DNA of 64,000 nt, taken from positions 585,180 to 649,179 of the forward strand of contig NZ_CH672387.1 in the NCBI RefSeq assembly GCF_000153465.1, in the 5' to 3' direction. The position numbers and the translations under genes are program-made. Shown here piece after piece: positions 17,588-42,773 of this stretch; position 1 is the stretch's first letter, and each line of letters opens with the position of its first letter. The notes under the pieces were generated by a model, which worked only from the letters and a program-made list of their open reading frames with translations, did no database searches and had not been told where the DNA came from. The stretch is from Aurantimonas manganoxydans SI85-9A1. Lineage in GTDB: Bacteria; Pseudomonadota; Alphaproteobacteria; Rhizobiales; Rhizobiaceae.

Positions 17588-18328
17588 TCAGATCCCGCCG
17601 AAGCCGGCACGGGCGGTCCAGTAGTCCCATGCACGGGCAACCGGCATCGGGCTGAGAAGCATCGCACTCGCCTTGTCGATCTCGCCATCCGTGAGATAGG
17701 TGACAGCCCCGAGAAGGCGCGTCGCCTGGATCAGTTCGGCATTGTCGCGCAGGCCGATCGAAATCATGACGACCGACTTCAGGTCCGTGGCGGCACAGAT
17801 CGCGCCGTGGCCGCGGAGAAGCGCCACCCGGTTTGCGCCGAGCGCACGCGACAGCGAGTGCCCCATCGCCATCGAATCGACCAGCATGTTGGTGTCGCCG
17901 AACTCGTCCTGGCTGTCCCAGACGGGGATCTCGGCGCCGATCACCGAAGCCATGTGGAACATCGGGCGGAGCGAGGCGTCGCACATGGTGAAAGGCAGCA
18001 CGGAGCGCGCATGGTGGTGCGTGACGGCGTGAACGTCCGGCCGGTCCTTATAGATGGCGCCGTGAATGTGTCGCTCGGCGTAGGGCTTGCGCGGGTCGTC
18101 GCCGATCTGCTCGCCCTCCAGGGTGAATTCCATGATGTCGTCGCGCGTGACGATCTCCGGGCTGCGCGAACGCGACAGGAAATAGCGATCGGGGTTCAGC
18201 GGATGGCGCACGCTGACATGGCCGAAATTATCGATGATGGTCTCGCGGGCGAGGATGCGATTGGCCATCACCAGCGTAGTCAGCGTGGCCTCGATGACGT
18301 TCTTCTCTCGGATTGCTTCAGCAGACAT
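17588..18328 (-). CDS. Class II aldolase/adducin-family protein, candidate aromatic decarboxylase (module A)
   Basis: Cytoplasmic metalloenzyme of the fuculose-aldolase fold, 246 residues. The metal site is visible: His104 and His106 (VTHHHARSV) and His174 (LLRGHGAIC), with a conserved acid at Glu85 (AERHIHG). Relatives include sugar-phosphate aldolases and the decarboxylases of 3,4-dihydroxyphthalate and of HCOMODA-type ring-cleavage products. SVRHPLNPDRYFLSRSRSPE is typical of the decarboxylase-like branch, where the catalytic phosphate-binding residues differ. It is last in the operon tctC-tctA-tctB-(DHPDC-like)-this gene, 56 bases after its partner. A second family member (25321-26064) pairs with a second DHPDC-like gene. 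The exact substrate is inferred, not shown. Confidence 0.8.
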   Translation of the reverse strand: MSAEAIREKNVIEATLTTLVMANRILARETIIDNFGHVSVRHPLNPDRYFLSRSRSPEIVTRDDIMEFTLEGEQIGDDPRKPYAERHIHGAIYKDRPDVHAVTHHHARSVLPFTMCDASLRPMFHMASVIGAEIPVWDSQDEFGDTNMLVDSMAMGHSLSRALGANRVALLRGHGAICAATDLKSVVMISIGLRDNAELIQATRLLGAVTYLTDGEIDKASAMLLSPMPVARAWDYWTARAGFGGI

Positions 18329-18384
18329 TCTTACTCTTTCTGAGACGATACTTCATCAGTTTCGGCTGCGCGCGCCGTGGCTGG

Positions 18385-19446
18385 TCAGACCTTGACGCTG
18401 GAGCGAACTTCCGGCGGGAAAAGCTCCTCTGGTTCCATACGCCGGTCGGTGATGCCTTGAGCATGGCCGAAGCGGCAGAAGGCTTCCAGAGTTGGCCGGT
18501 TGGCATCTATACCGTAGGGCCAGAAATCCTCGCCGAAGCTCCGCTGGACCTCGCTGGCGAAGCTCGCGATCCAGGGCAGCGGGATGCGCGACACGGCGAC
18601 ATCGAGGGTGCGCTCGATCCCACGACGCTTGGCGTCCTCGAACGCCTTGACTAGGCTGGTGCCGATCCAGGGATGGCGTTCGAACACGTGGCGGCGGACC
18701 GAAATGGTATGCATGATCGGGAAGATGCCGGTATCTTCCCAGTAGCGGCGCTCTTCGGCCTGGGGATCGGCGAACAGCCGGCGGATCCTCTCGTTGCCCT
18801 CGGCGAAGGCTCTCGGCGGGCGCGCCGTCGCAATCGCGTCGATCTCGCCGGAAAGCAGCATATCGTTGAGGCAGCTGTCCGGGCGACTGGAATAGCGGAT
18901 GCCGTTCGGCAGGTTCAGGCGGACCTTCTCCTCTCGCCCGGCCTGGTTCACCCCGGCCTGCACCCAGTCGACCGAGGCGAGGTCGAGGCCGTAGCTTTCC
19001 TGCAGCATGCCGCGGACGTAGATGCCGGCGGTCTGTGCCCACTCCGGAATACCTATGCGCTTGCCGTTCAGCTCTTCCGGAGAGCAAATCTTCGAATCCG
19101 AGCGCAGATAGATCGCCGAATGGCGGAACACCCGCGAAGGGAACACCGGGATGCCGACCATCGGCGCATTGCCCTGCGCGGTCAGCGCCAGGAACTTGGC
19201 GAAGGACACTTCGGAGACATCGAATTCCTGATGCTTCAGGAAGCGGTAGAAGATCTCCTCGACGGGCAGGAGCAGCGGCGTCAGCGTGATGCCTTCGGGC
19301 TGGATTTCGCCATTGGCGAGATCGTGCACGTGGTCGTAGTCGGCCATTGCCAGGGTCAGCTGAAGCCGGGCGGTGCCGCCGCATCGGATGAACTCCGGTT
19401 GGCGGGCAAGGGATCCGGCGGCCCCGGCGGATGCATCGATGGTCAT
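18385..19446 (-). CDS. 4,5-dihydroxyphthalate decarboxylase-like protein (module A)
   Basis: Member of the Pht5/DHPDC family, which has the type 2 periplasmic-binding-protein fold but acts as a cytoplasmic decarboxylase in phthalate breakdown. The 353 residues show LTLAMADYDHVHDLANGEI, LLPVEEIFYRFLKHQEFDVS, VGIPVFPSRVFRHSAIYLRS, LNGKRIGIPEWAQTAGIYVR, GIFPIMHTISVRRHVFERHP and the C-terminal WPYGIDANRPTLEAF with MEPEELFPPE, in the family's order. No signal peptide is present, arguing against a transport receptor. The start at 19446 was preferred because the extra N-terminal residues of a longer start at 19497 have no ribosome site. It lies 57 bases after tctB. Substrate assignment is inference. 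Confidence 0.82.
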   Translation of the reverse strand: MTIDASAGAAGSLARQPEFIRCGGTARLQLTLAMADYDHVHDLANGEIQPEGITLTPLLLPVEEIFYRFLKHQEFDVSEVSFAKFLALTAQGNAPMVGIPVFPSRVFRHSAIYLRSDSKICSPEELNGKRIGIPEWAQTAGIYVRGMLQESYGLDLASVDWVQAGVNQAGREEKVRLNLPNGIRYSSRPDSCLNDMLLSGEIDAIATARPPRAFAEGNERIRRLFADPQAEERRYWEDTGIFPIMHTISVRRHVFERHPWIGTSLVKAFEDAKRRGIERTLDVAVSRIPLPWIASFASEVQRSFGEDFWPYGIDANRPTLEAFCRFGHAQGITDRRMEPEELFPPEVRSSVKV

Positions 19447-19503
19447 GGCAGGCTTCTTTCGGATGAATGGGGAGGGCTGGATGACGAGCAAGCGCATCGG
19501 GCC

Positions 19504-19926
19504 CTAGCGGAGGAGGGGGGCGATAAGCCAGCCCCAGTGAAAGCTCAGGCTGAGAACCCGGACGAACAGGATCTCGATCACCGCCGCGATCCCGATCGCA
19601 ACAACAAGTGCGACAAACGGGCCGGTCCGGCGGGCGATGGCGTAGACGAAGCCATAAGCCGGCAGCCCGATCCGGAACCCGAGGAGGTAAATCAGCGGCA
19701 GGGCAGCCAGAAGCCAAAGGATCGCCGACCAAGTGATCGCGGCGTGGTCGTCGTTCGGCGGCTCGCCGCGCATGGCCATGAGCCCGAACAGCAGGACGCC
19801 GCCGGCGGCGATCGCCGGAAAGACGTTGGCGCTCGCCGGATAGTCGCCGATGGTCATGCCCCAGATGACGAGGGCGCAGACGCCGAGGATCGTCCCCGCG
19901 ATCAAAAGGCGGTCACTGCGGATCAT
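19504..19926 (-). CDS. tctB: Tripartite tricarboxylate transporter small subunit (TctB family)
   Basis: Small inner-membrane subunit of a TTT uptake system, 140 residues with four hydrophobic segments (LLIAGTILGVCALVIWGMTI; VFPAIAAGGVLLFGLMAM; AILWLLAALPLIYLLGFRIG; FVALVVAIGIAAVIEILFV). The second segment contains the family's PAIAA pattern. Its start overlaps the end of tctA by four bases. Between it and the decarboxylase-like gene there are 57 bases and no terminator, so they are probably co-transcribed. Confidence 0.86.
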   Translation of the reverse strand: MIRSDRLLIAGTILGVCALVIWGMTIGDYPASANVFPAIAAGGVLLFGLMAMRGEPPNDDHAAITWSAILWLLAALPLIYLLGFRIGLPAYGFVYAIARRTGPFVALVVAIGIAAVIEILFVRVLSLSFHWGWLIAPLLR

Positions 19927-21398
19927 GTGAGCCTCTTGCGCAGGCGCGGCCCGATCTTAGGCGCCAGCAGCGCCAGCACCATCAGCACGATCAGCCCGAT
20001 GCAGATTGGCCGCAGCAGGAAGCCGGGGCCGTAGATGTTGAGCGAGATCTCGAGATAACGCTCGACTGCAGGGCTGAGAACGAAACCGAGCAGCAACGCC
20101 GCCCGGTTGAAGCCGTAGCGGACGCAGGCGATGCCAACGGCGCCGAAGACGAAGGTGAAGACCACGTCCTGCATGTTGTTCTCGGTGGAATAGGCACCGA
20201 GCAGTGCGAGGGTCAGAAGGAAGGGTACGAGCAGCCGCGGGGGAACGCTGACCACCCGTGCGAGGAGCGGCATCAGCGCGAACATCAGCCCGGCGGCCAG
20301 GACGTTGACGATGGCGAGCACCAGGACGAGACCGAGACCGATGTCGAGATGGTCACGCAGAAAGTTCGGACCGGGCTGCAGGCCGAGGACGAGGAAGGCG
20401 CCCAAAAGCAGCGCCATGCCTGAACTCCCCGGAACGCCGAAGACGAGCGTCGGAACCAGCGCGCCGCCTTCCTTGGCGTTGTTGCTTGCTTCAGGCGCGA
20501 TCACGCCCTCGATGATGCCGGTGCCGTAGCGCTCGGGATTCTTGTCGGACTGGCGGGCGGTCGCATAGGCGACGAAGGGCGCGGTTTCGCCGCCGACGCC
20601 GGGGATGATGCCTATGATCGAGCCGACGGCCGAGCTGCGAAAGACGAGCCCCATCCGACCGAAGACGGCCTTGAAGCCGTTGAGGAGCTGGCGGCCGGGC
20701 AGTTCGCCCTTGGACTGCTCCAGCGAGCGGCCGGAGGCCAACGCCACGAGTTCGGGAATGGCGAACAGGCCAAGCGCCAGCGGAATGAGGCGGATGCCGT
20801 CGAGCAGATAGTCGTAGTCGAACCAGTAGCGCGGCACGCCGCTGACCGGCTCGTAGCCGACGAAGCTGATGAAGATGCCGAAGGCGCCGGCGACGAGGCC
20901 TCTGGCCGGCGAACCGGCGCCGACCGCGGCGAGGAAGGTCAGGCCCATCAGCGACAGAAGGAAGGTTTCGGCCGGGCCGAAGGCGAGAACGACGGGCCGC
21001 AGCACCGGCAGGAGCACGAGAAGCACGAGGGCGCCGAACACCCCGCCCACCGCCGATGCGGTCAGGGCAGCTCCGACGGCGGTGCCGCCGAAGCCAGCAT
21101 TGCGCAGCGGCACTCCGTCGATGAGCGTTGCGGCATTCGCCGGCGATCCGGGAATTCCGAGCAGGATCGCGGTGACGGAGCCGCCGGTGGAGACCACGGC
21201 ATGCGCGGTCAGCAGGAAGGCGAGACCGGCAAAGCCGTCCATTCCGTAGACGAAGGGAATGAGCACGGCCATTGCTGTCAATCCGCTGAGGCCCGGCAGA
21301 AGTCCGAACAGCAGGCCGACGGGCAAGGCCGTTGCCACCGCCCAGACGACGGCGGGCTGCAGGGTCTGGCTGCCCGCACTGATCAATGCATCCCACAT
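19923..21398 (-). CDS. tctA: Tripartite tricarboxylate transporter large permease (TctA family)
   Basis: Main membrane subunit of the TTT system, 491 residues with about 12 hydrophobic segments. Signature stretches: FGLLPGLSGLTAMAVLIPFV, AILLGIPGSPANAATLIDG, LLSLMGLTFLAAVGAGSPA and GVIAPEASNNAKEGGALVPT with LVFGVPGSSGMALLLGAFLV, the two glycine/proline loops typical of TctA. The protein is complete. It lies 15 bases after tctC. TTT systems import citrate-like and also aromatic dicarboxylates such as terephthalate; the neighbouring decarboxylase-like genes make an aromatic di- or tricarboxylate plausible. Confidence 0.93.
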   Translation of the reverse strand: MWDALISAGSQTLQPAVVWAVATALPVGLLFGLLPGLSGLTAMAVLIPFVYGMDGFAGLAFLLTAHAVVSTGGSVTAILLGIPGSPANAATLIDGVPLRNAGFGGTAVGAALTASAVGGVFGALVLLVLLPVLRPVVLAFGPAETFLLSLMGLTFLAAVGAGSPARGLVAGAFGIFISFVGYEPVSGVPRYWFDYDYLLDGIRLIPLALGLFAIPELVALASGRSLEQSKGELPGRQLLNGFKAVFGRMGLVFRSSAVGSIIGIIPGVGGETAPFVAYATARQSDKNPERYGTGIIEGVIAPEASNNAKEGGALVPTLVFGVPGSSGMALLLGAFLVLGLQPGPNFLRDHLDIGLGLVLVLAIVNVLAAGLMFALMPLLARVVSVPPRLLVPFLLTLALLGAYSTENNMQDVVFTFVFGAVGIACVRYGFNRAALLLGFVLSPAVERYLEISLNIYGPGFLLRPICIGLIVLMVLALLAPKIGPRLRKRLT

Positions 21399-21413
21399 AG
21401 CCGTGCGCTCCGG

Positions 21414-22448
21414 TCAGAAGTACTTGGACAGGAGCACGTCGCGGACCGCCGAGAGCTGGTCTTCCGGGAGGTTGCCGAAGATCTTGCCAACGGTGTCCTG
21501 CACGTCTTCACCGGAGGCGTAGTCGATCGGCAGTCCGCGATCCTCGGCCGATTTCACGAAAGCCGGATCGGCCAAAATCGTCTCGAACGCCTCGCGCAGA
21601 TAGCTGATGCGCTCATCGGGGGTGCCAGGCGTGGTAATGAGGGCCCGGCCGATGTCGACGATGCCGGCGCGGAAGTCGATCCAGAAAGCTCCTTCCTGCG
21701 GAACGTCGACCGCCTCAAAGATCGTCGGCACGTCCGGCAGGAGCTGCGAGCGGTTGTGGCCGATCACCGCGACTGGGATGAGCGAGCCATCCTGGGAATA
21801 GTCGCGGGCACTCCTGTCGGTGATCGCGATGCCGGTGACGTCGCCGCGGATGGCCGCGAGCGACGCTTCGCTCGAGCCCTTGAAGCCGACGACGAGGTTG
21901 CAACTAAGCTCCAGGGCCTCGCAGACGACTGCGGCGGTGTCGGTCGGACCATCGACGCGTCCAAGGCCGGAGAAGCTCAAGGTCTTGCCGGCCTTGCTGG
22001 CCTCGACGAGGTCCTTCAGGCTCGTATAGCCGGAGTTCTTGCTGACCAGCAGTACCCAGGGCTCGGCCGCGACGCGGCCGACGAAGGGCAGGTTCTGCAA
22101 CTCGAAGCGAACGGCCGGCGCCTCGGTGATCTGTCCGAGCGCGGCCGGCACGCCGTTGATCAGCATCACGCTGAGTCCGTCCGGATCGGCGCCGGCGACC
22201 TGGTTGATCGCCGTGATGCCGCCGCCGCCGGGGCGGTTCTCGACCACGACGGTGGCGCCTGTAACCTTGCCGAGTTCCGGCGCCAGCAGCCTGGCATACT
22301 GGTCGAATCCGCCTCCGGGGCCCGTTCCGACGATGAGACGCACCGTCTCGTTCTTGTAGAAATCGGCAGCCGCACCGCCCTCGGCCGAGGCGGCGAAGCT
22401 CGAGCCGAGGAGCAGCGCTCCTGCGAGCAGAGCCTTGGTGATCTTCAT
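21414..22448 (-). CDS. tctC: Tripartite tricarboxylate transporter binding protein (TctC/Bug family)
   Basis: Periplasmic receptor of the TTT system, 344 residues, first gene of module A. A signal peptide (MKITKALLAGALLLGSSFAA) is followed by Bug-family motifs: VRLIVGTGPGGGFDQYARLL, VVVENRPGGGGITAINQVAG and DGLSVMLINGVPAALGQI. The C-terminal domain ends in a normal helix. It diverges from a LysR gene with 144 bases between, the likely control region. Bug proteins bind di- and tricarboxylates and aromatic acids through two carboxylate-binding loops; the ligand here is not known. Confidence 0.92.
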   Translation of the reverse strand: MKITKALLAGALLLGSSFAASAEGGAAADFYKNETVRLIVGTGPGGGFDQYARLLAPELGKVTGATVVVENRPGGGGITAINQVAGADPDGLSVMLINGVPAALGQITEAPAVRFELQNLPFVGRVAAEPWVLLVSKNSGYTSLKDLVEASKAGKTLSFSGLGRVDGPTDTAAVVCEALELSCNLVVGFKGSSEASLAAIRGDVTGIAITDRSARDYSQDGSLIPVAVIGHNRSQLLPDVPTIFEAVDVPQEGAFWIDFRAGIVDIGRALITTPGTPDERISYLREAFETILADPAFVKSAEDRGLPIDYASGEDVQDTVGKIFGNLPEDQLSAVRDVLLSKYF

Positions 22449-22592
22449 GCTTTTCCTCCCGTTTGCATGTTTGCCCGGACGCTACAGCCCAGCCTGCCGG
22501 AGAACAAAATCCTTGCGCCGCTGGCAGCTAGAGCATTTACTTATATCGACCGACCCGAGGACGGGCGTGTAAACACGGCGTTGGGAGGCGGC

Positions 22593-23585
22593 GTGAACCT
22601 GAAGCAACTCCATTATTTCGTGGCGATTCTCGACGCCCGCAGCTTCACGCGCGCTGCCGAGCATCTGGGCGTGGCGCAGCCGGCGCTCGGCCAGCAGATC
22701 AGGAAGCTTGAGGACGAGCACGGTGTCCGACTGCTGCGGCGCCATTCCCGTGGGGTGGAACCGACCGAGGCGGGAACGCTGCTTCTTGATCATGCGCGCA
22801 GGATCATCAAGCAGGCCGAGGAGGCCGCCGCCGCTCTGCGAGACTTTTCCGCCCTGCCGCGCGGTCGGCTCAATCTCGGACTGACGACCATGATGAGCGG
22901 CATGCTCGCCGGCCCGTTAATTCGCCGCGCGGCCCAGGAGCTCCCCGGCGTGCAGGTGTGCATCGTGGAGGAGATGTCTTCTGTGCTCATGGAATGGGTC
23001 GCCGAGGAGAGGCTTCAGATCGCGCTGGCCTTCAACGTCGCGAGTGCGCCGGGCCTGCGCTGGGAGCCGGTGCTGCAGGAAAGTCTCTATTTCGTCGAGA
23101 GCGCCGAGCAGGGCAAGGCGAGCGGTGGCACGATCACCTTTGCGGAGGTCGCAACCCATCCTCTGGTCGTTCCCGCCTCGCCGCACAGCATCCGTGCACT
23201 GATCGAGGAGAAGAGCATCGAGGCGAACGTATCCCTGAACATCGTCTACGAGGTACATGCGGTCTCGACAGTGCGCGATTTAGTCTCGCAACACATGGCC
23301 GCCACCGTTATGCCCTACGGCGCGGCGCGCCAGGAGATCGAGGCGGGCAAGCTAATCGCGAAGCGCATCGTCGATCCGGACGTCAAGCGAGACCTGTTCT
23401 TCATCCACACCGAGCGGCGGTCGCTGTCGAAGGCGGAACTCGCCCTCAAGGCGATGCTCCTCGACATGCTGGACGGCGAGATGCGGCGCAGTGACGAATG
23501 GGCCCCAATCTCCGACCGGCAGGCCTCGATCGCCGCCTTGCAGCGTCGCTCGACGCCGCTCGGGCGAGGATGGTTCGCCGTTTAG
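22593..23585 (+). CDS. LysR-family regulator of module A
   Basis: A 330-residue LysR regulator. The N-terminal HTH is NLKQLHYFVAILDARSFTRA with LGVAQPALGQQIRKLEDEHG, followed by the linker helix and an effector domain (GRLNLGLTTMMSGMLAGPLI; VQVCIVEEMSSVLMEWVAEE). GTG at 22593 was chosen because GGGAGG precedes it by four bases and the family begins there; the frame stays open much further upstream only as antisense of tctC. It diverges from tctC, so it probably controls the transporter and decarboxylase genes. It resembles the LysR of module B (24213-25163) in length and in the AQPALG recognition helix. Confidence 0.9.
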   Translation: MNLKQLHYFVAILDARSFTRAAEHLGVAQPALGQQIRKLEDEHGVRLLRRHSRGVEPTEAGTLLLDHARRIIKQAEEAAAALRDFSALPRGRLNLGLTTMMSGMLAGPLIRRAAQELPGVQVCIVEEMSSVLMEWVAEERLQIALAFNVASAPGLRWEPVLQESLYFVESAEQGKASGGTITFAEVATHPLVVPASPHSIRALIEEKSIEANVSLNIVYEVHAVSTVRDLVSQHMAATVMPYGAARQEIEAGKLIAKRIVDPDVKRDLFFIHTERRSLSKAELALKAMLLDMLDGEMRRSDEWAPISDRQASIAALQRRSTPLGRGWFAV

Positions 23586-24212
23586 ATCGTCGACCCGTCG
23601 ATCGATCCCGCCGATCCCCCCCTCCTAGTTAAAGCCAAGGTCATGGACGCAACGCCCGCCGGCGGCAAATCCTTGAAGGTATCAAGTCTGGCTGAGTGGT
23701 CGCCGGTTAGATCTGCTACGGATTGCGACATTGCGAGCCGAATATTTGACAGCCATGCGGCGGCAGCTGTCGATTTCGAGCCGCGACCTATGCCAGCAAA
23801 GTACCCCCGTGCAGACCGGACAATAATGGATATCCAGACAAGGGGCCCGACGCGCCAGCGCGGTGATAGCCTCTAGTTTCAACGTCCGGCCAGATAAGCG
23901 CGTCTTTATAGTCGTATGCCTGGAAGTGCCCCGTACCGGCCGAATATGGGCACTACATGCGACGATCGACCCTGGATTGCCTTCGAGGTTCAACAAATGG
24001 AACCAGTGACAAGAGTCCAGAGCACATCTCCAGGCCACTCGCGAAAAGAAGGTGCTTCGATCCTAAGCCCTTGATGGCAATTTCTGAAATGGGCATCTGC
24101 CGACCGGCCCGTCTGTATGGTGCCAATAGCTGATGCCGCTGCGTCATCCAATGCCGGCAGCCAGAAGAACTGGTGGGCGAACATTGCGATCGAGCAGGGT
24201 CCGGATCGGTGT
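23586..24212. other. Gene-free gap between the two LysR genes
   Basis: This 627-base stretch separates two convergent LysR genes. Short open frames exist on both strands, but none has a ribosome site, a motif or coding-like codon use. The base composition is lower in GC than the flanks. No repeat, hairpin with T-run or RNA gene was recognised. Confidence 0.45.
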
Positions 24213-25163
24213 TCATTTCGGCTCGCTGACGATGAGTGCCGAGCCGGGCGCCGTAAAGGCAGGGTGCTCTTGACACATTACGGCGAGAAGTTCTTCGATG
24301 ATCGTCGCTAACTGCCGTTCCTGCGGCGCCGGCGCGACGTCCTTGCTCCAGACCATCGACAGTGTCCGAGTGATGGCGGGCGAGACAATAGGCCGGACGG
24401 TCAGAATGCCGGCCTCCAATTCGCGCGCAATCGTGCCGAACGGCAGGATGCCGCAGGCCATGCCGCGCGCGATCAGCTCCTTCATCGCCTGCATGGACTC
24501 GACCTGATAAGGGACCTTAAGCGTCATCCGGTTCGCCGCCATTGTCTCCTCGACGAGCTGGCGCACGAAGTCCCGCTCGCTCGGCATCACGAAATTCGGT
24601 TCGGTCAGGTCGGCGAAGGGCAAAGGCTGCGGATGGTCGAAGGGCGAGCCAGGAGCGCAGACGAAGAAGAGCACCTCCTGCAGCAGCGGCTTGCGCCGCA
24701 GCTTCAACCCGTCCGGCACCGAATAGGCGAGGGCGAGGTCGAGGTGGCCGCGGCCGAGCCGGTCGAGCAGCGTATGACTGAACTCCTCGAAGATCTGCAG
24801 CCGCACGTTCGACAGTCGCTCGGGCACGATCTCGAGGAGACGGCCGGTCAGAACGGTCGTCAGGCTCGGCGTCAGGCCGAGCGTGATCGTGCGCGGCTGG
24901 CGCCCGGCAAATTCGCGCAGGCGCCGCCGGACTTCGCTGAGGCGCCTGATGATGTGCCGGGCTTCCTCCAGAAAGATCACGCCGGCTTCGGTAGGGACCG
25001 CTCCGCGCCGCGTGCGCTCCAGGAGAACGACGCCGAGCTGGTCCTCGAGTGACTTGAGCTGGAGCCCGAGTGCCGGCTGCGCGACGTTGAGCCGGGCCGC
25101 CGCCTGGGTAATGCTGCCGGTCTCGCAAACCGCGACGAAGAATTCCAGCTGCCTGATGCGCAC
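24213..25163 (-). CDS. LysR-family regulator of module B
   Basis: A 316-residue LysR regulator, divergent from the class II aldolase gene that begins module B. HTH: RIRQLEFFVAVCETGSITQA with LNVAQPALGLQLKSLEDQLG. Linker: RHIIRRLSEVRRRLREFAG. Effector domain: TITLGLTPSLTTVLTGRLLE and the C-terminal MACGILPFGTIARELEAGIL. It resembles the module A regulator across the protein, including the MPYGA/LPFGT region near residue 245. The 157-base divergent region probably carries its operator, but no clear T-N11-A palindrome could be fixed. Confidence 0.92.
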   Translation of the reverse strand: MRIRQLEFFVAVCETGSITQAAARLNVAQPALGLQLKSLEDQLGVVLLERTRRGAVPTEAGVIFLEEARHIIRRLSEVRRRLREFAGRQPRTITLGLTPSLTTVLTGRLLEIVPERLSNVRLQIFEEFSHTLLDRLGRGHLDLALAYSVPDGLKLRRKPLLQEVLFFVCAPGSPFDHPQPLPFADLTEPNFVMPSERDFVRQLVEETMAANRMTLKVPYQVESMQAMKELIARGMACGILPFGTIARELEAGILTVRPIVSPAITRTLSMVWSKDVAPAPQERQLATIIEELLAVMCQEHPAFTAPGSALIVSEPK

Positions 25164-25320
25164 CGACCGCTCCTCCCGGGCGGAAGCTCCACCGGAATGC
25201 TTCGCCAGTCAAACCATTTCGGTATGACCGCACAAGAAACATGTCTTGGACAGCCGCGCGGTTCTGCTCTCTTCTGCCGGTACGAGAAGGGCGACAGCCC
25301 CGGCATGGGAGGAGAGTGGC

Positions 25321-26064: not shown

Positions 26065-26099
26065 CTGATGCGCCGCCTCGAGCGGCATGGAGGAAATCG

Positions 26100-27911: not shown

Positions 27912-28771
27912 ACAGTATCCCGGCAAGCTTCAAGATCGATGCTGCATCTTCCAAGGATGCCGCGCCTTCGATCCTCACCGTCGACGACGTCGTCAAGCGC
28001 TTCGAGACCCCGGACGGCCCGCTGATCGCCGTCGACCACATGTCGCTCGATGTCCGAGAGGGCGAGTTCGTGTCGGTCATCGGCCCGTCCGGCTGCGGAA
28101 AGTCGACCCTCTTCAACCTGATCGGCGGGCTGCTTTCGCCGAGCGAGGGGCAGATCACCGTTGCCGGCGAGGAGGTGCGCGGGCCGCATCCCTCGATCGG
28201 CATGGTGTTCCAGGAGGAATCAACGTTTCCCTGGCGCACCGTCGAGGAGAACGTCGCTTTTTCACTGGAGGTCCAGGGCGTCGGTAAGGCCGAGCGGCTG
28301 GAACGGGCGCACCACTTCATCGCCATGGTCGGGCTGCGGGGCTTCGAGAAGAGCTATCCGACGGAACTCTCCGGTGGCATGCGCCAGCGTGTCTCCATGG
28401 CGAGGACGCTGGCCTTCGAGCCGAAGCTGCTTTTGATGGACGAGCCCTTCGCCGCCCTCGATGAGCAGACCCGGCTCCTTCTCGGTGACAAGGTCCTGCA
28501 GATCCAGCAGGAGCTGAACCAGACGGTGGTGCTGATCACCCACAACATCACCGAAGCGGTGCAGCTATCCGACCGCATCCTGATCATGACCTACCGACCG
28601 GGGCGCACCAAGCGCTTCGTCGAGATCAAGCTGCCGCGCCCGCGCAGCTCGGAGATCGTCGGCAGCGACGCCTTCGGCCACTACGTCGCAGAGATCTGGA
28701 ACGATCTGCGCGAGGAGGCGAGCAAGGGCATGCAGGACGAGGAGATGACGGTGCAGAGGCGGCGGCGATGA
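27908..28771 (+). CDS. ABC transporter ATP-binding protein (NitT/TauT/SsuB family), module B
   Basis: ATPase that powers import through the two permeases encoded next. The 287 residues contain Walker [10 protein letters not shown] (59-67), the Q-loop GMVFQEESTFPWRTVEENVA, the signature LSGGMRQRVSMAR, Walker B LLLMDEPFAALDEQTR and the switch His in VLITHNITEAVQLSDRI. EESTFPWRT is typical of nitrate/sulfonate/taurine-type systems. It overlaps both neighbours by four bases, so translation of the operon is coupled. Confidence 0.94.
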   Translation: MNSIPASFKIDAASSKDAAPSILTVDDVVKRFETPDGPLIAVDHMSLDVREGEFVSVIGPSGCGKSTLFNLIGGLLSPSEGQITVAGEEVRGPHPSIGMVFQEESTFPWRTVEENVAFSLEVQGVGKAERLERAHHFIAMVGLRGFEKSYPTELSGGMRQRVSMARTLAFEPKLLLMDEPFAALDEQTRLLLGDKVLQIQQELNQTVVLITHNITEAVQLSDRILIMTYRPGRTKRFVEIKLPRPRSSEIVGSDAFGHYVAEIWNDLREEASKGMQDEEMTVQRRRR

Positions 28772-29526
28772 GAGCCATCGACCGCTTCGGCCCGGCCACG
28801 CTCGGCCTTGGCGCCTTCATCATGTTTCTCGTCGTCGTCGAAATCTTGATCCGCGCCGGCGTCATCAACGGCTACATCGTGCCGCTGCCGTCCGCCGTCG
28901 TTGTCGCCCTGGAGCGGGTGGTGACAGAGGAGGGCGTCGTGCCGCGCTTCGTCCTGACCGCAGGGGAAGCGTTCGCCGCCGGCCTTCTGGTTGCCGGCAT
29001 CGGCATCCCCGCCGGCATCCTGTTGTTCAGCGTCAACCTGTTGCGGCGGGCGACCGAGAACTGGGTCGCGGCCTTCGCCGCCGCCCCTGTAGTCCTGGTC
29101 TATCCGCTGTTCCTGGTGATTTTCGGCCGCAGCTCCTGGACGATCATCGCCATCGGCACCGTCGCCGGCCTGCCGCCGGTAATCCTGAAGACACTGGAGG
29201 GGCTATCCGGCGTGCGGCCGGTGCTGATCCGGGTCGGGGCGAGCTTCAACCTGACTCGCTGGCAGCAGTTTCGCACGATCCTCTTCCCGGCCGCCGTCCC
29301 GACGATCTTTGCGGGGCTCCGGCTCGGCCTGATCTTCGCGATGATCAATGTTGTCGGCGTCGAGTTCCTGATCAATTTCGGCGGCCTCGGTCCGCTGATC
29401 AACGAATTGTCCGAGCGCTACGACATGCCCGGCACCTATGCGGCGATCTGCTTCGTGGTGCTGGTCAGCGTGCTCTTCTTCCTCTTGGTCGAAAGGGTGG
29501 AAAAATGGCTACGACCGGCGTCCTGA
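28768..29526 (+). CDS. ABC transporter permease (NitT/TauT family) 1, module B
   Basis: Inner-membrane channel subunit, 252 residues with about six hydrophobic segments (LGAFIMFLVVVEILIRAGVI; FAAGLLVAGIGIPAGILLF; VVLVYPLFLVIFGRSSWTII; GLIFAMINVVGVEFLINFGG). The EAA-type coupling loop that contacts the ATPase is at LIRVGASFNLTRWQQFRTIL...AAVPTIFAGLRLG. The start lies in a four-base overlap with the ATPase gene. The end overlaps the second permease by 22 bases. Confidence 0.92.
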   Translation: MRAIDRFGPATLGLGAFIMFLVVVEILIRAGVINGYIVPLPSAVVVALERVVTEEGVVPRFVLTAGEAFAAGLLVAGIGIPAGILLFSVNLLRRATENWVAAFAAAPVVLVYPLFLVIFGRSSWTIIAIGTVAGLPPVILKTLEGLSGVRPVLIRVGASFNLTRWQQFRTILFPAAVPTIFAGLRLGLIFAMINVVGVEFLINFGGLGPLINELSERYDMPGTYAAICFVVLVSVLFFLLVERVEKWLRPAS

Positions 29527-30299
29527 CCCGGCCGGCGCCAAGCTGGCGCCCCGATGCGGTCACCCTCGTACGGATCGCGATCATCGCGGCGATCCTTATC
29601 CTGTGGCAAGCTCTCGCCCTTTCCGAACTGCTCTATCAGGACGTGGTCCCGCCGCTGCAGGCGATCGTGAGGGCGCTCGCCCGTCTCCTCGGGAGCGCAG
29701 AGTTCTACGTCAATCTCTGGGCAAGCCTTTACGAGACCGCGGTAGCGCTTCTCGTCGGCGGCGGGGCGGGGCTCTTCGTCGGCATCGCGCTCGGCGGCAG
29801 CCGCTTCCTCGGCCGCGCCTTCGAGCCGTATCTTTATTACCTCGGCCCGACGCCGAAGATCATCTTCTTCCCGATCATGATCATGTGGTTCGGCGTCGGC
29901 CCGGGCTCCAAAATGGCGATGGGCGCCATGTCCTGCTTCTTTCCGGTTGCGCTCAGTGTCGCCGTCGGTATGCGGGCAATCCCGTCGATCCTCATCCGCG
30001 TCGGCCAGAGTTTTCGGGCTAGCCAGGCTCAGATGGTGACGAAGATCTACCTGCCGGCCATGCGCGAACCGGTGGTGAACGGGTTCCGGCTGGGCTTCGG
30101 CATCGCCCTCATCGGTGTGCTTCTTGCTGAGACCAAGCTCTCCAACCAGGGCCTCGGCTTCCTGGTGATCCAGAACTACCAGCGCTTCGATATGCCGGCG
30201 ATGTACGCGCTTCTGATCGCCGTCTTCGCCCTGTCGATTCTGGCCAATGCCGGCATCAGCCGGCTGACCCGGCCGGGCGGCGGCAGGGCCGGCAAATAG
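29505..30299 (+). CDS. ABC transporter permease (NitT/TauT family) 2, module B
   Basis: Second channel subunit, 264 residues, related to the first and probably forming a heterodimer with it. It has six hydrophobic segments, FEPYLYYLGPTPKIIFFPIM with the WFGVGPGSK turn, and the EAA loop ILIRVGQSFRASQAQMVTKI...AMREPVVNGFRLGFG. The overlap of 22 bases with permease 1 is unusually long but both frames are intact. A GC-rich stem-loop follows before the first binding-protein gene. Confidence 0.92.
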   Translation: MATTGVLTRPAPSWRPDAVTLVRIAIIAAILILWQALALSELLYQDVVPPLQAIVRALARLLGSAEFYVNLWASLYETAVALLVGGGAGLFVGIALGGSRFLGRAFEPYLYYLGPTPKIIFFPIMIMWFGVGPGSKMAMGAMSCFFPVALSVAVGMRAIPSILIRVGQSFRASQAQMVTKIYLPAMREPVVNGFRLGFGIALIGVLLAETKLSNQGLGFLVIQNYQRFDMPAMYALLIAVFALSILANAGISRLTRPGGGRAGK

Positions 30300-30304
30300 C
30301 CATC

Positions 30305-30334
30305 CCGCGGGCGGGGGAGACGCCCGCGGTTATT
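30305..30334 (+). terminator. Intercistronic stem-loop between permease and binding-protein genes
   Basis: CCGCGGGCG (30305-30313) pairs with CGCCCGCGG (30321-30329) around a 7-base loop, followed by TTATT. The T-run is weak, so this is more likely a partial terminator or an mRNA-stabilising hairpin that sets the level of the binding-protein message. Confidence 0.5.
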
Positions 30335-30354
30335 CTACACACAGGGAGGAATAC

Positions 30355-31308
30355 ATGAAAACGACGACACTTATCCTTGCAGGGCTGCTCGCCTCTGCGA
30401 TGGCGGGCGAGGCCATTGCTGCCGATAACCTTAAGCTCGCGGTCGGACAGCGCGGCAACTGGGACACCGCGGTCGCCGAGCTCGGACAGCGCGCCGGCAT
30501 CTTCGCAAAGCACGACCTCGAGCTCGACCTGCTCTACACCCAAGGCGGCGGCGAGACGATGCAGGCGGTGATCTCCGGCAGCGTCGACATCGGCGTTGCG
30601 GCCGGCACCCTTGGTGTCCTCGGCGCCTTTTCCAAGGGCGCCCCGGTCCGCATCATCGGCGCCGAGGCGACCGGCGCAGCGGACTTCTGGTACGTGCCTG
30701 CCGACTCCAAACTGCAGTCGCTGAAGGACGCCGACGCCGACACGACGATTGCCTATTCGACCAACGGCTCGTCGACCAATTCGATGGTGCTCGGCTTCAT
30801 CAACGAATACGGCCTGAAGTCTCAGCCGGTCGCGACCGGCAGTCCCGCGGCGACCTTCACCCCGGTGATGACCGGCCAGGTTGATGTCGGCTGGTCCTCG
30901 CCGCCCTTCGGCTTCGATGCCCTCGACGAGGGCAAGATCCGCATCATCGCCCGCGGCAACGACATTGAGGCGATCCGCAACCAGTCGATCCGCACCCTGA
31001 TCGCCAACCAACAGTTCATGGCAGAGCGTCCGGACGAGCTGCAGCGCTTCATGGCTGCCTACCGCGAGACGATCGACTGGATGTATTCCGGCGACGAGGC
31101 ACTCCAGACCTATGCCGAATTCGCCGACACCGACGTCCCGACGGCGAAGCGCATCCGTGATGAGTTCTTCCCGCAGTCACTGATCGACCCGGACGAGATG
31201 TCCGGCATGCCTGCGTTGATGGAGGATGCCGTCAAGCACAAGGTGCTGACGGAGAAGCTGTCCGACGCGCAGCTGGCAGAACTCATCCAGATTCCGGCGC
31301 GACAGTAG
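30355..31308 (+). CDS. ABC transporter substrate-binding protein (NitT/TauT family) 1, module B
   Basis: Periplasmic receptor, 317 residues. The signal peptide is MKTTTLILAGLLASAMAGEA with cleavage near AIAA. The type 2 binding fold begins DNLKLAVGQRGNWDTAVAEL, then GIFAKHDLELDLLYTQGGGE, TMQAVISGSVDIGVAAGTLG and VATGSPAATFTPVMTGQVDV. It is preceded by AGGGAGGA at a good distance. It is closely similar to the next gene product across its full length, a tandem duplication. The ligand is unknown; the operon suggests an aromatic acid. Confidence 0.93.
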   Translation: MKTTTLILAGLLASAMAGEAIAADNLKLAVGQRGNWDTAVAELGQRAGIFAKHDLELDLLYTQGGGETMQAVISGSVDIGVAAGTLGVLGAFSKGAPVRIIGAEATGAADFWYVPADSKLQSLKDADADTTIAYSTNGSSTNSMVLGFINEYGLKSQPVATGSPAATFTPVMTGQVDVGWSSPPFGFDALDEGKIRIIARGNDIEAIRNQSIRTLIANQQFMAERPDELQRFMAAYRETIDWMYSGDEALQTYAEFADTDVPTAKRIRDEFFPQSLIDPDEMSGMPALMEDAVKHKVLTEKLSDAQLAELIQIPARQ

Positions 31309-31316
31309 CGCTATTG

Positions 31317-31348
31317 CCTGCCGGCGGGGGAGGTCCGCCGGCAGGTTT
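31317..31348 (+). terminator. Intercistronic stem-loop between tandem binding-protein genes
   Basis: CCTGCCGGCGG (31317-31327) pairs with CCGCCGGCAGG (31335-31345), an 11-base perfect stem with a 7-base loop followed by TTT. It has the same layout and a similar loop (GGGAGGT against GGGGAGA) as the hairpin before the first binding-protein gene, so the pair may have been duplicated with the gene. Confidence 0.55.
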
Positions 31349-31379
31349 CTGGGCAACAAACCAAACGGGAGGAATGACA

Positions 31380-32348
31380 ATGCGCAGGACATTTCTGAAG
31401 GTCTGCCTGGTGCTGGCTTCGACGCTGTCGGGCGGCACGGCCATGGCCCAGGAACTCGACATGCTGAGGCTGGCCATCGGCCAGCGGGGCAACTGGGAGA
31501 ACTCTCCGGCTGAACTCGGGCAGCAGGCGGGCATCTTCGCCAAGCACGGGTTGAAGCTCGACATCCTCTACACGCAAGGCGGCGGTGAGACGATGCAGGC
31601 GGTCATTTCGGGGAGCGTCGACATCGGTGTGGGCGTCGGAACCTCCGGCATCCTCAGCGCCTTTTCAAAGGGCGCGCCGGTTCGGGCGATCGCCAACTCC
31701 ACCACCGGCGCCAACGACCTCTTCTGGTACGTGTCGGCGGACTCGCCGGTGCAGTCCTTCAAGGACGCCGGCGACAAGACTGTCGCCTTTTCCTCGAATG
31801 GCTCCTCCACCAACACTATGGTGCTCGGGCTGATGCAGGAATTCGGCATCGAGGCTGAACCGGTCGCGACCGGCAGCCCAGCCTCCACCTGGACCCAAGC
31901 GATGTCGGGCCAGGTCGACATCGGCTGGTCGGCTCCGCCGAGGGGTGTGCAGGAACTGCAGGACGGCAAGATCCGCGTCATCGCGCGCGGCAGCGATGTC
32001 CCATCCCTCCGCAATCAGACCGTGCGTCTTATGATCACCTCGGCGTCGGTCCTTGAGGCAAAGGAGGACGAGATAAAGCGCTACGTCGAAGCCTATGCCG
32101 AGACGCTCGACTACATGTATTCCGATCCGAAAGCGGTGGAGGCCTATGCCAAGTGGGTCGAGGTGCCGGTCGAGGTGGCGGAGAAGACCCGCGACGACTT
32201 CTACCCCAAGGAGAACCTGCGGATCGATAGGCTCAGCGGCATGGACGACGCCATGGCCGATGCCGTCCGGCTGAAGTTCATCCCCAAAGTGCTGACCGAG
32301 GCGCAGCTGGACGAGCTGATCCAGTATCCCGCCGGCCATAGCGAATAA
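31380..32348 (+). CDS. ABC transporter substrate-binding protein (NitT/TauT family) 2, module B
   Basis: Second periplasmic receptor, 322 residues, a paralogue of the preceding one. The signal peptide is MRRTFLKVCLVLASTLSGG with AMA cleavage. Matching motifs are LRLAIGQRGNWENSPAELGQ, GIFAKHGLKLDILYTQGGGE, TMQAVISGSVDIGVGVGTSG and VATGSPASTWTQAMSGQVDI. The ATG at 31380 was chosen because GGGAGG lies seven bases upstream; the ATG six bases earlier is too close to it. Two receptors with one permease/ATPase set suggest a transporter that accepts two related ligands. Confidence 0.93.
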   Translation: MRRTFLKVCLVLASTLSGGTAMAQELDMLRLAIGQRGNWENSPAELGQQAGIFAKHGLKLDILYTQGGGETMQAVISGSVDIGVGVGTSGILSAFSKGAPVRAIANSTTGANDLFWYVSADSPVQSFKDAGDKTVAFSSNGSSTNTMVLGLMQEFGIEAEPVATGSPASTWTQAMSGQVDIGWSAPPRGVQELQDGKIRVIARGSDVPSLRNQTVRLMITSASVLEAKEDEIKRYVEAYAETLDYMYSDPKAVEAYAKWVEVPVEVAEKTRDDFYPKENLRIDRLSGMDDAMADAVRLKFIPKVLTEAQLDELIQYPAGHSE

Positions 32349-32411
32349 ATCCCGCGCGCCGGCTGCTCGCGGCCGGCCGCTCACTTTTGCATTGCCGATT
32401 TCGGAGGCAGC

Positions 32412-33920
32412 ATGCTAGACGAGCCGAACGACCCCATCACCACCCTCTTGCCCAGCCAGCGCGGGCTCTACGTCGCCGGCGCCTGGCGCGAGCCCGCGTC
32501 CGGCCGGCATGTCGAGCTGACCAGTCCCGGCACGGGACAGTCCCTCGGAACTGTCGCCGAAGCCGGCGCCGCGGATGCCGAGGCGGCGATCGCCGCGGCC
32601 AAGGCGGCCTTCCGGGAGTGGCGCGACGTCACGCCGAACGAGCGGGCGAAAATCCTGCGCAGCATCGCGGCCATCGTCCGTGAAAACGCCCGCGAACTCG
32701 CCACCATCGACGCCGCCGACTGCGGCAACCCGATGACGGCGATGCTGGGCGATGCCGATATCGCCAGCGCCCAGCTGGACTTCTTCGCCGGCCTCGTCAC
32801 CGAGATGAAGGGCGCATCGATCCCCATGGGCCCGGGTTCGGTGAATTTTTCGCTACGCGAGCCGCATGGCGTCGTCACCAAAATCATGCCCTTCAACCAT
32901 CCCTTCATGTTCTGCGCCGGCAAGATCGCGGCGCCTCTCGCCGCCGGCAACACCGTGGTGGTCAAGCCGCCGGAGCAGGCGCCGCTCTCCTCACTGCGCT
33001 TTGCCGAGCTGATCGACGGGCTGCTCCCGCCAGGCGTCTTCAACCTCTTGCCGGGCGGGCGCGAGGTCGGCGAGGTGCTGTCCGGCCACCGCGACGTCGC
33101 CATGGTCTCGCTGATCGGCAGCGTGCGCACCGGCCAGGCGGTGATGCGGTCGGCGGCCGAGACGATCAAGCCGCTTCTGCTCGAACTTGGCGGCAAGAAC
33201 GCGCTGATTGCCTATCCCGACGCCGATCCACGTGAGGTGGCGCGGGCGCTGGCCGCAGGCATGAACTTCACCTGGTGCGGCCAGTCCTGCGGCTCGACCA
33301 GCCGCGGCTTCATCCACGCGGCGATCTACGAGGATGTGCTCGCCCACCTCGCGGAAGCCTGCGCCGCCTACCGGCCGGGGATCCCGACCGATCCGTCTAC
33401 CACCATGGGCGCAATCGTCAGTCGGATGCAGTACGAGCGGGTGAAAGAGTTCATCGCAGCGTCGAAGGCGGAAGGCGCTCGGCTCGTCGCCGGCGGCGGC
33501 CATCCAAGTGATCCGGCGCTGGAGGACGGCTTCTTCATCGAGCCGACTGTCTTCGCGGACGTTACGCCGACGATGCGGATAGCCCGCGAGGAGGTGTTCG
33601 GTCCGGTGCTGGCGATCGCGCCCTGGCGCGACGAGGCGGCGATGCTGGAAGAGGTCAACGCCGTCGAGTATGGGCTGACCTGCTCGATCTGGACCGACGA
33701 TCTCCATCAGGCGCATCTCACCGCCCGCGAGGTCGAGGCCGGCTATGTCTGGATCAACGACGTCTCCAAGCATTTTCTCGGCGCGCCCTTCGGCGGCGTC
33801 AAGCAGTCCGGCCTCGGGCGCGAGGAATGCCTCGAGGAACTCCTCGCCTATACCCGCGAGAAGAACGTCCATCTGCGCCTGAACCCTAGCCGCACTCGGC
33901 TCGTCAGAGGCGCGGTCTGA
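32412..33920 (+). CDS. NAD(P)-dependent aldehyde dehydrogenase, module B
   Basis: Oxidises an aldehyde to its acid in the cytoplasm; 502 residues. The ALDH fold is complete. The cofactor region is KIMPFNHPFMFCAGKIAAPL with VVKPPEQAPLSSLRFAELID. The general base is Glu258 (LLLELGGKNALI), the nucleophile is Cys293 (TWCGQSCGSTSRG), and the C-terminal EVFGPVLAIAPW and FGGVKQSGLGREECLEEL are present. GGAGG precedes the ATG. GQSC at the active site and the length are close to benzaldehyde/betaine-aldehyde-type enzymes. Placed with the ThDP enzyme it is a good candidate for an aryl-aldehyde dehydrogenase, but substrate choice cannot be read from sequence. Confidence 0.92.
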   Translation: MLDEPNDPITTLLPSQRGLYVAGAWREPASGRHVELTSPGTGQSLGTVAEAGAADAEAAIAAAKAAFREWRDVTPNERAKILRSIAAIVRENARELATIDAADCGNPMTAMLGDADIASAQLDFFAGLVTEMKGASIPMGPGSVNFSLREPHGVVTKIMPFNHPFMFCAGKIAAPLAAGNTVVVKPPEQAPLSSLRFAELIDGLLPPGVFNLLPGGREVGEVLSGHRDVAMVSLIGSVRTGQAVMRSAAETIKPLLLELGGKNALIAYPDADPREVARALAAGMNFTWCGQSCGSTSRGFIHAAIYEDVLAHLAEACAAYRPGIPTDPSTTMGAIVSRMQYERVKEFIAASKAEGARLVAGGGHPSDPALEDGFFIEPTVFADVTPTMRIAREEVFGPVLAIAPWRDEAAMLEEVNAVEYGLTCSIWTDDLHQAHLTAREVEAGYVWINDVSKHFLGAPFGGVKQSGLGREECLEELLAYTREKNVHLRLNPSRTRLVRGAV

Positions 33921-33960
33921 TACTCGGCCCGCTTCAGGGCAGTTCGAACGGAACCATCAC

Positions 33961-34953
33961 ATGAGCAAGCTGAAACTGTCCATCGCCGTTGGCGATTACG
34001 ACCGCACGCGTCCGCTGATCGACGGCACCGTCCAGATCGACGGCGTCGACCCGGTCTTCATGACACTCGATCCCGAGGAGATCTTCTTCCGGGCCTTTCG
34101 GCATGCCGAATTCGACGTCTCCGAGCTGTCGTTGAGTTCGTTTTCGGTTAAAACTGCGCGGGACGACTGTCCCTATGTCGGGATCCCGGTGTTCCTGTCC
34201 CGGGCCTTCCGCCACACTTCCTTCTATGTCAACGCTTCGGCTGGCATCACCAAACCGCAGGACCTGCGCGGCAAGCGGGTCGGCGTGCCGGAATACCAGT
34301 TGACCGCCTGCGTCTGGGGCCGGGTAATCCTCAAGGACGAATACGGGCTGGATCCCAGCGAGATCACCTGGGTGCGTGGGGGCATTGAGCAGCCGGGCCG
34401 GCCGGAGAAGATCGCGATCGATCTGCCCGAGGGCGTCCGGTTGGAGAGCGCGCCGGAAGGTCGCTCCCTCTCCGACCTCCTCCTTGCGGGTGAGATTGAT
34501 GCAATTCTGACGCCGCGCGCACCTTCAGCGTACGATCGGGGCGAGGCGGGCGTGCGATGGCTTTTCGAAGATCCGACCCGGGCAGCCACCGACTACTACG
34601 AGCGCACCGGCATCTTTCCGATAATGCATCTCACCGGCCTGCGTCGTGAGTTATCCGATGAGCATCCCTGGCTCGCGGGCGCTCTGTTGAAGGCCTTCAC
34701 GCAGGCCAAGGTTGTCGCACAACGCCGGCTTAGTGATACGTCCGCCACCAAGGTGACGCTGCCTTTTGTGGAAGAGCGCCTGCGCGAAGCGCACCAGCTG
34801 ATGGGCGCAGATTTCTGGTCCTATGGCTACGCCCGAAATCGCGAACAGCTGGACATTTTTCTCGACCACCATCATGCTCAGGGCCTGTCCTCGCGCCGCC
34901 TCGTGCCCGAGGACCTCTTTCATCCATCCAGTCTCGAAACACATCTGATCTGA
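33961..34953 (+). CDS. 4,5-dihydroxyphthalate decarboxylase-like protein (module B)
   Basis: A second Pht5/DHPDC-family protein, 330 residues, no signal peptide. It begins [19 protein letters not shown], then [80 protein letters not shown] and [20 protein letters not shown] with [13 protein letters not shown] at the end. These are the same blocks as in the module A protein; VPEYQLTA is closer to authentic DHP decarboxylases than IPEWAQTA of module A. It is the last gene of module B, with an IS630 relic starting about 12 bases later, so anything originally downstream may have been lost. Confidence 0.83.
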
Positions 34954-36948: not shown

Positions 36949-37003
36949 TGGTGCATCTCCAGACCGCTGCAGAACCACCCGAGGGCGGGCGCGTGCCAAA
37001 GGG

Positions 37004-42072: not shown

Positions 42073-42079
42073 TCCTCCA

Positions 42080-42760: not shown

Positions 42761-42773
42761 GGCGCGATGCTAG

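Follow-up and report, generated by a model that had tools for sequence, protein, structure and literature searches.

Two paralogous operons with class II aldolase-fold and DHPDC-like genes beside a MobA-type gene in Aurantimonas manganoxydans: a candidate island for hydroxylated aromatic dicarboxylates

Described systems and the two operons

The closest described relatives of the system treated here are the 4,5-dihydroxyphthalate decarboxylase DHPDC (Pht5; solved structure 9jp7), the 3,4-dihydroxyphthalate decarboxylase PhtC, a class II aldolase-fold enzyme that decarboxylates aryl acids ortho to a hydroxyl, the 3-hydroxy-2-methylpyridine-4,5-dicarboxylate (HMPD) decarboxylase HMPDdc (2z7b), the 3-hydroxybenzoate hydroxylase MobA of Comamonas testosteroni (2dkh), and the phthalate 4,5-dioxygenase clusters of Marinibacterium pLA6_006 and of a Sulfitobacter faviae plasmid. 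Here we compare with them two paralogous operons in a 64,000-nucleotide stretch of Aurantimonas manganoxydans SI85-9A1 (contig NZ_CH672387.1, positions 585,180 to 649,179), which we call the window and whose own numbering we use throughout. Each operon has its own LysR gene, a transporter, a class II aldolase-fold gene and a DHPDC homologue, and a MobA-type gene lies beside one of them. Based on sequence comparison, we tentatively propose, at somewhat short of even confidence, that this is an island for vicinal aromatic dicarboxylates with a pre-existing ring hydroxyl, converging on 3-hydroxybenzoate and from there on protocatechuate. As such it may be a variant of phthalate-type catabolism, all of its activities being assigned by homology and gene context.

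Operon A (17588-22448, minus strand) runs in the order TctC binding protein (21414-22448; PF03401, 94 bits), TctA large permease (19923-21398; PF01970, 401 bits), TctB small permease (19504-19926), DHPDC-A (18385-19497) and class II-A (17588-18328; PF00596, 85 bits), with intergenic gaps of -4 to 56 bases. The three Tct proteins would form a tripartite tricarboxylate transporter (TTT); TctB is a 140-residue frame that overlaps TctA by 4 bases and is named from position and hydrophobicity only. The true start of DHPDC-A is possibly further in. Operon B (25321-34953, plus strand) consists of class II-B (25321-26064; PF00596, 90 bits), a thiamine diphosphate (ThDP)-dependent enzyme with three TPP domains (26100-27911), a NitT/TauT-type ATP-binding cassette (ABC) ATPase (27908-28771), two permeases (28768-29526 and 29505-30299), two periplasmic binding proteins (30355-31308 and 31383-32348), an aldehyde dehydrogenase (32412-33920; PF00171, 498 bits) and DHPDC-B (33961-34953), with gaps of -22 to 74 bases. 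The ATPase matches the NCBIfam taurine, Sao and nitrate ABC ATPases below their cut-offs, and the binding proteins match the SsuA family at 69 and 83 bits, also below cut-off, while the permeases are named from their open reading frames (ORFs) and operon position and have homologues on Agrobacterium pAt2. The two binding proteins (30355-32348) are 56% identical within one ABC operon, and pAt2 also has two; perhaps there is one for each substrate isomer.

Each operon is headed by a divergent LysR gene that would control it, and LysR A (22593-23585, plus strand; start picked inside ORF 21201-23585) and LysR B (24213-25163, minus strand; PF00126 and PF03466) converge on one another. The two class II proteins are 46% identical (E 2e-65), the two DHPDC-like proteins 43% (E 2e-100) and the two LysR proteins 34%. 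When DHPDC-A was searched against its own genome (4.33 Mb, estimated completeness 100%), it and DHPDC-B were the sole matches at E <= 0.001. The original prediction, made from the window alone, had described these two modules, with LysR genes facing each other and paralogous enzyme pairs, and all the genes it named are present where it put them. It had left out TctB, an oxalomesaconate operon upstream, and the MobA-like and MarR genes beside module A.

Family relationships and recurrence of the genes

For both class II proteins the best PDB match is HMPDdc (2z7b), at E 4e-46 and 38% identity for A and E 1e-44 and 37% for B, with solved fuculose aldolases far behind (at best E 9e-7 and 9e-10). 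In our tree, 2z7b and both proteins belong to one clade of 58 rows (SH-aLRT 99). Outside it are 12 control PF00596 rows, which do not form one clade (8 together, 4 across two other groups), as well as two PhtC-type reference rows, which come from actinobacterial phthalate-type loci and are named by gene context, not by assay. This and the tree described below are quick trees with SH-aLRT support only and with long branches, and they sample loci unevenly, pooling the results of several searches. Although the window proteins share the class II aldolase fold with PhtC, they score only 66.9 and 50.8 bits with the PhtC model NF053537, a third or less of its equivalog cut-off of 200. A predicted (AlphaFold) model of class II-A, with a mean pLDDT of 69, has 2z7b as its top Foldseek match (E 3.5e-20), followed by pyruvic oxime dioxygenase (1.7e-13), TqaM (2e-11) and fuculose aldolases (7e-11 or weaker), with NovR also below HMPDdc; given that pLDDT, we count the fold search as support only.

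According to a statement in PMC11841055, HMPDdc is Mn(II)-dependent. The Glu and the three His of its metal site are conserved in 57 of the 58 family rows (rows of at least 130 bits, the window proteins and 2z7b), both window proteins included. An extra His, at position 125 of class II-A, is found in 56/58 family rows vs 1/12 controls. The likeness to HMPDdc has its limits in the 37-38% identity and in the gene context, which is benzoate-type here. The class II family is present in 25 of 387 alphaproteobacterial genomes searched. We also observed 2-4 class II members and 9-18 DHPDC-like matches per genome in G147, G237, G313 and G378, which belong to one family (L098, L100, L102, L103 and others), an expansion for which we have no explanation.

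The DHPDC-like proteins match 9jp7 over most of their length, DHPDC-B at E 9.3e-134 and 58.5% identity and DHPDC-A at E 3.6e-84 and 40%. In a 100-row tree, DHPDC-B belongs to a 37-row clade (SH-aLRT 99) with 9jp7 and copies from phthalate clusters, and 16 of these 37 rows come from loci that also have phthalate-type Rieske and Gfo matches (250 bits or more). DHPDC-A, in contrast, lies outside this clade, in another of 9 rows (SH-aLRT 100), none of which comes from a locus with Rieske as well as Gfo matches. Both proteins have weak NMT1 and SsuA matches, and by eye we saw no signal peptide at either N-terminus.

The gene beside operon A (15016-16980, minus strand) would encode a MobA-type FAD-dependent 3-hydroxybenzoate 4-monooxygenase. 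Its best PDB match is 2dkh (E 1.4e-246, 823 bits), the next being phenol 2-monooxygenase (E 5e-113, 382 bits), and it scores 975 bits with NF006144 (cut-off 560). The four residues that we take to line the substrate pocket of 2dkh (Asp75, His135, Lys247 and Tyr271) are all conserved in the alignment. A MarR-type regulator gene (17091-17549, plus strand; an ORF named by eye) is divergent from mobA, which is presumably the position of MobR, and a MarR homologue also adjoins mobA in Jiella endophytica and two Roseibium genomes. Unlike the Comamonas gene, that of the window adjoins hydroxyphthalate-type decarboxylase genes. PMC3572157, in the part that bears on it, gives mobA as 3-hydroxybenzoate 4-hydroxylase. 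We consider this hydroxylase gene the best clue to the product of the island.

Both modules in the same order, together with mobA, also occur in Jiella endophytica (L011/L050) and Aurantimonas sp. CSK15Z-1 (L012/L051), whose DHPDC-B copies are 92% and 82% identical to ours, respectively; these may be close kin, and shared descent may account for part of the recurrence. In Aurantimonas sp. CSK15Z-1 mobA lies downstream of class II-A on the same strand, 81 bases apart, and there is no MarR match at the locus. On Agrobacterium pAt2 (L085), one row of genes holds class II, aldehyde dehydrogenase, ThDP enzyme, ATPase, two permeases and two binding proteins and ends in a MobA-type gene with 60% identity to that of the window. 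Unlike the window, this row has MarR rather than LysR, no DHPDC match in the stretch examined, and a class II protein of another branch of the family (36% identical to A). Close homologues of class II-A are encoded on the plasmids Phaeobacter pP128_c (70% identity) and Antarctobacter pSMS3-3 (73%), together with a 3-hydroxybenzoate 6-monooxygenase (559 and 538 bits, respectively; equivalog cut-off 459) and, by annotation, gentisate-pathway-type genes, with the gentisate dioxygenase backed by NCBIfam in Antarctobacter pSMS3-3 only. MobA and the 6-monooxygenase have no significant pairwise similarity, yet have a common substrate.

Altogether, A-type class II genes stand with a 3-hydroxybenzoate hydroxylase gene in 3/6 lineages vs 0/40 control neighbourhoods (one-sided Fisher p 0.0013, to be taken with caution given that the six lineages were found through similarity to the window protein). 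The 40 controls were hand-picked, spread along the list and away from family members, and are PF00596 proteins from outside the family, which need not be sugar aldolases. The same statistic for the wider class II family was dropped as weak: among its 40 neighbourhoods L107 has a good match and L120-L122 have poorer ones (213-224 bits), against 0/40 controls by best-match label.

Recurring linkage of the enzyme pair, which the original prediction had called for, was found: in the 24 genomes with the class II family examined for it, there are 9 class II-DHPDC pairs within 10 kb vs 1.6 expected, and without one over-represented family 4 class II genes lie near a DHPDC gene vs 0.44 expected (Poisson p 0.001), the expected numbers assuming random placement. 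This test took 117 of 118 rows; a G291 gene is split in two, and its second part was the row left out. Within the stretches examined, class II occurs without a DHPDC match on Agrobacterium pAt2, Antarctobacter pSMS3-3 and Phaeobacter pP128_c, and DHPDC occurs without class II in the phthalate clusters of Marinibacterium and Sulfitobacter faviae. Because each occurs without the other, the two look like parallel, position-specific steps. We took 11 of 16 places outside our own genome as DHPDC neighbourhoods of relatives; in five the protein is at least 58% identical to DHPDC-B, with class II in 3/5 and a ThDP enzyme in 3/5, and the other six have neither. A Hyphomicrobiales metagenome-assembled genome (MAG) has both DHPDC types about 3.7 kb apart with an aldehyde dehydrogenase gene between them (L064, 9965-14700), a locus with no class II or Rieske match.

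Proposed route and its alternatives

The best PDB matches of the ThDP enzyme are benzoylformate decarboxylases (BFDC; E 2e-25). Its E79 and H102 are equivalent to what we take to be Glu47 and His70 of BFDC and are invariant in 8 aligned sequences, including the window's, while acetolactate synthase in the same alignment lacks the His70 equivalent. The aldehyde dehydrogenase is 60.5% identical to a Marinibacterium protein annotated as PhdK 2-formylbenzoate dehydrogenase. ThDP relatives lie within the full phthalate clusters of Sulfitobacter faviae and Marinibacterium anthonyi, the latter with an aldehyde dehydrogenase annotated as 2-formylbenzoate dehydrogenase. Like operon B, these clusters combine ThDP enzyme, aldehyde dehydrogenase and DHPDC, but they also have Rieske, reductase and Gfo genes, none of which was seen in the window operons. 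Among the 40 plasmid ThDP records listed (of 46), 22 have a DHPDC gene within 15 kb, 8 of these 22 being from Phaeobacter; the DHPDC side of this count used 60 of 197 records. In the G520 island, matches to Gfo, reductase, Rieske, aldehyde dehydrogenase, ThDP, ABC, class II, DHPDC and pcaHG form one string, and G227 has Gfo, Rieske, binding protein, ThDP, ABC, DHPDC and class II together. The two Roseibium genomes and G007, of the same genus as our organism, have class II, ThDP, TTT transporter, aldehyde dehydrogenase and DHPDC, with no Rieske or Gfo match in the stretch examined. The simplest common substrate for the ThDP enzyme is phthalonate or a hydroxylated form of it. For echinochrome A, a hydroxynaphthoquinone, a passage of PMC7587531 describes oxidation to a phthalonic acid derivative, with loss of CO2 to an aldehyde-bearing benzoic acid.

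The window had been predicted to hold no ring dioxygenase for phthalate, and this extends to the whole genome: PF00848 gave 0 matches, and the 3 matches to PF00355 are by eye a ferredoxin-reductase fusion, a nitrite-reductase region and a cytochrome bc1 locus, so no ring-hydroxylating Rieske oxygenase was found with these two models. A standard phthalate 4,5-dioxygenase operon, which the original prediction had also thought a poor match, is therefore rejected, and the known route from phthalate to dihydroxyphthalate is not open to the organism. For the same reason the substrate has probably been hydroxylated beforehand. The two operons contain no reductase or Gfo dehydrogenase gene, a genome-wide search for these not having been made.

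In the route that we propose, the NitT/TauT-type ABC system of module B would import an aryl acid, and the ThDP enzyme would decarboxylate an arylglyoxylate (hydroxyphthalonate, i.e. hydroxy-2-carboxyphenylglyoxylate) to hydroxy-2-formylbenzoate, which the aldehyde dehydrogenase would oxidise to hydroxyphthalate. The TTT transporter of module A would import hydroxyphthalate-type acids directly. In HMPD two carboxyls are vicinal and one of them has a hydroxyl ortho to it; 3-hydroxyphthalate has the same pattern, and loss of the equivalent carboxyl yields 3-hydroxybenzoate. The metal-dependent class II enzyme would thus remove the carboxyl ortho to the hydroxyl of 3-hydroxyphthalate, a carbocyclic twin of the HMPDdc reaction, whereas DHPDC would remove the carboxyl para to a hydroxyl, converting 4-hydroxyphthalate to 3-hydroxybenzoate or 4,5-dihydroxyphthalate to protocatechuate. 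With DHPDC acting on the 4-hydroxy and class II on the 3-hydroxy isomer, both could meet at 3-hydroxybenzoate, the MobA substrate, and MobA would turn this into protocatechuate, the ring of which is presumably cleaved by a pair of intradiol dioxygenases encoded by two adjacent genes elsewhere in the genome. Among the steps of this route, we found published support only for DHPDC on 4-hydroxyphthalate and MobA on 3-hydroxybenzoate. For the former, PMC10773090 states in the passage concerned that DHPDC converts 4-hydroxyphthalate to 3-hydroxybenzoate, and the corresponding passage of PMC13040137 describes the Comamonas enzyme as acting unspecifically on 4-hydroxyphthalate; the source given in both is a 1978 paper.

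Several points weigh against this proposal. Enrichment of DHPDC near the class II family is weak, at 8/40 neighbourhoods vs 2/40 controls (one-sided p 0.04), and with one related group collapsed to a single count it becomes 5/37 vs 2/40 (p 0.18); the 40 neighbourhoods derive from 42 matches outside our own genome, G421, at a contig start, being left out and two of G419 contig 14 sharing a stretch. Because 22/40 of these neighbourhoods have none of the aromatic-pathway markers searched, the class II family overall may also have other roles. No 3-hydroxybenzoate hydroxylase was found in the stretch examined at the A-type locus of Salipiger abyssi or in G031 and G028 (A-type by score only), and none is annotated near a partial class II gene in Paracoccus. 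Despite having class II, ThDP, aldehyde dehydrogenase and DHPDC, the G007 genome has no MobA match, and no 3-hydroxybenzoate hydroxylase match in the 80 kb examined, and in both Roseibium genomes mobA and the module are on different contigs. The ThDP enzyme scores 148 bits against a BFDC equivalog cut-off of 493, and the position of BFDC His281 is not conserved among its relatives. Finally, 22/28 ThDP neighbourhoods (L175-L202; 22/30 when L113 and L130 are counted too) have no DHPDC, phthalate-type Rieske or Gfo match.

A more specific version of the proposed route, doubtful though possible, is that it is an undescribed pathway for hydroxynaphthoquinone-type pigments or similar compounds, in which the ThDP enzyme and the 2-formylbenzoate-type dehydrogenase would lead to hydroxyphthalates, and class II and DHPDC from there to 3-hydroxybenzoate. 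In that case the class II protein would be a new metal-dependent 3-hydroxyphthalate decarboxylase, unrelated to DHPDC and specific for another position, and the ThDP enzyme and dehydrogenase would be an unrecognised upper pathway in Roseobacter-type phthalate plasmids. In the open-licence PubMed Central literature, juglone, 3-hydroxyphthalate and phthalonate included, we found no description of this pathway.

Among explanations of a different kind, it is unlikely, in our view, that the island scavenges dihydroxyphthalates, with DHPDC-B acting on imported 4,5- and class II on imported 3,4-dihydroxyphthalate to give protocatechuate, MobA being an independent neighbour, and the substrates coming from neighbours' products or from demethylation of methoxyphthalates. 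This would fit the place of DHPDC-B beside 9jp7 in the Pht5 clade, 16 rows of which are from Rieske and Gfo loci, as well as the class II nature of PhtC and the sub-cut-off match of 67 bits to it. However, neither class II protein belongs to the PhtC-type clade or reaches the PhtC cut-off of 200 bits, and the 3-hydroxybenzoate hydroxylases, of two different kinds, with which the A type recurs would have no use in dihydroxyphthalate breakdown. Less attractive still is the original prediction's idea that the two decarboxylases of a module act in sequence on a single carboxylated catechol (a tricarboxylate). Both enzymes are indeed present in each operon and their linkage recurs, but each is also found without the other in similar clusters, within the stretches examined, and we regard joint action as unsupported and quite improbable.

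Besides the recurring linkage and the mismatch with a standard phthalate operon, what stands of the original prediction is that these are decarboxylase-family proteins, DHPDC being akin to 9jp7 and class II nearer HMPDdc than solved sugar-phosphate aldolases. It had named kinship to sugar aldolases and transport receptors, with no recurring linkage, as evidence to the contrary, and we looked for this and found otherwise. A related possibility is that the DHPDC-like proteins are solute receptors and the class II proteins either sugar aldolases or Fe-dependent oxygenases (of the type of pyruvic oxime dioxygenase, NovR or TqaM). Pyruvic oxime dioxygenase and TqaM come next after HMPDdc in the fold search, above NovR and fuculose aldolases, and the DHPDC-like proteins do have NMT1 and SsuA matches, albeit weak; yet HMPDdc is clearly first by both sequence and fold, and the match of both DHPDC proteins to a solved DHPDC over most of their length, with no signal peptide seen by eye, makes this possibility highly improbable. 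As no solved protein is closer to the two class II proteins than HMPDdc, a hydroxypyridine dicarboxylate of the vitamin B6 or quinolinate type could also be the substrate, but at identities of only 38% and 37%, and with neighbours here and in relatives that are benzoate-type (MobA, gentisate, pca; vitamin B6 catabolic genes were not searched for), we consider it very unlikely.

Chromosomal setting and meaning

Beyond the module, 95.5% of the bases of window 40545-50080 (L234, 1-9537) are common to G007. This conserved block has genes for two FAH proteins, GntR, a NitT/TauT transporter, Ldh_2 and TRCF (Mfd). G007 has its own version of the module (DHPDC 69% and class II 44-52% identical, TTT transporter) directly at the block edge, so the sister species have differing module versions at the same chromosomal place, and the block edge may be an exchange site. 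In the window the module is 5.6 kb further from the block than in G007; between module B and the block lies a gene for a protein with PNPOx-type and NAD-binding oxidoreductase domains (35317-37119), accompanied by a GST-like gene (by eye) and a LysR gene. Past the module, the comparison with G007 gave no match over the next 60 kb, and the far edge of the island was not located.

On the other side, a single row at 6083-9659 (minus strand) encodes a 4-oxalomesaconate tautomerase (514 bits; cut-off 440), a CHA aldolase (369 bits; cut-off 179), a PIG-L protein, which we take to be a possible oxalomesaconate hydratase, and a catechol-2,3-dioxygenase-like type I extradiol enzyme, to our knowledge an unusual companion of oxalomesaconate chemistry. 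That this operon is part of the same system is unsupported, the Jiella and Aurantimonas loci having no matches to its genes. When three of its genes and a DUF1932 gene were looked for near DHPDCs, a similar set was found only in a Rhodospirillaceae MAG (L030, 1-4046), where oxalomesaconate tautomerase, PIG-L and DUF1932 homologues lie about 6 kb from DHPDC; CHA aldolase matches near DHPDCs also occur in L130, L041, L044 and L055.

If the proposed route is correct, it would give a function to an unnamed branch of the class II aldolase-fold proteins and to DHPDC-like proteins, which at present are often annotated as ABC receptors, and it would account for DHPDC homologues in a genome that has no phthalate dioxygenase. 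It would also be a further way into the phthalate and 3-hydroxybenzoate pathways, and it would call for caution in taking such clusters as a sign of phthalate-ester degradation.

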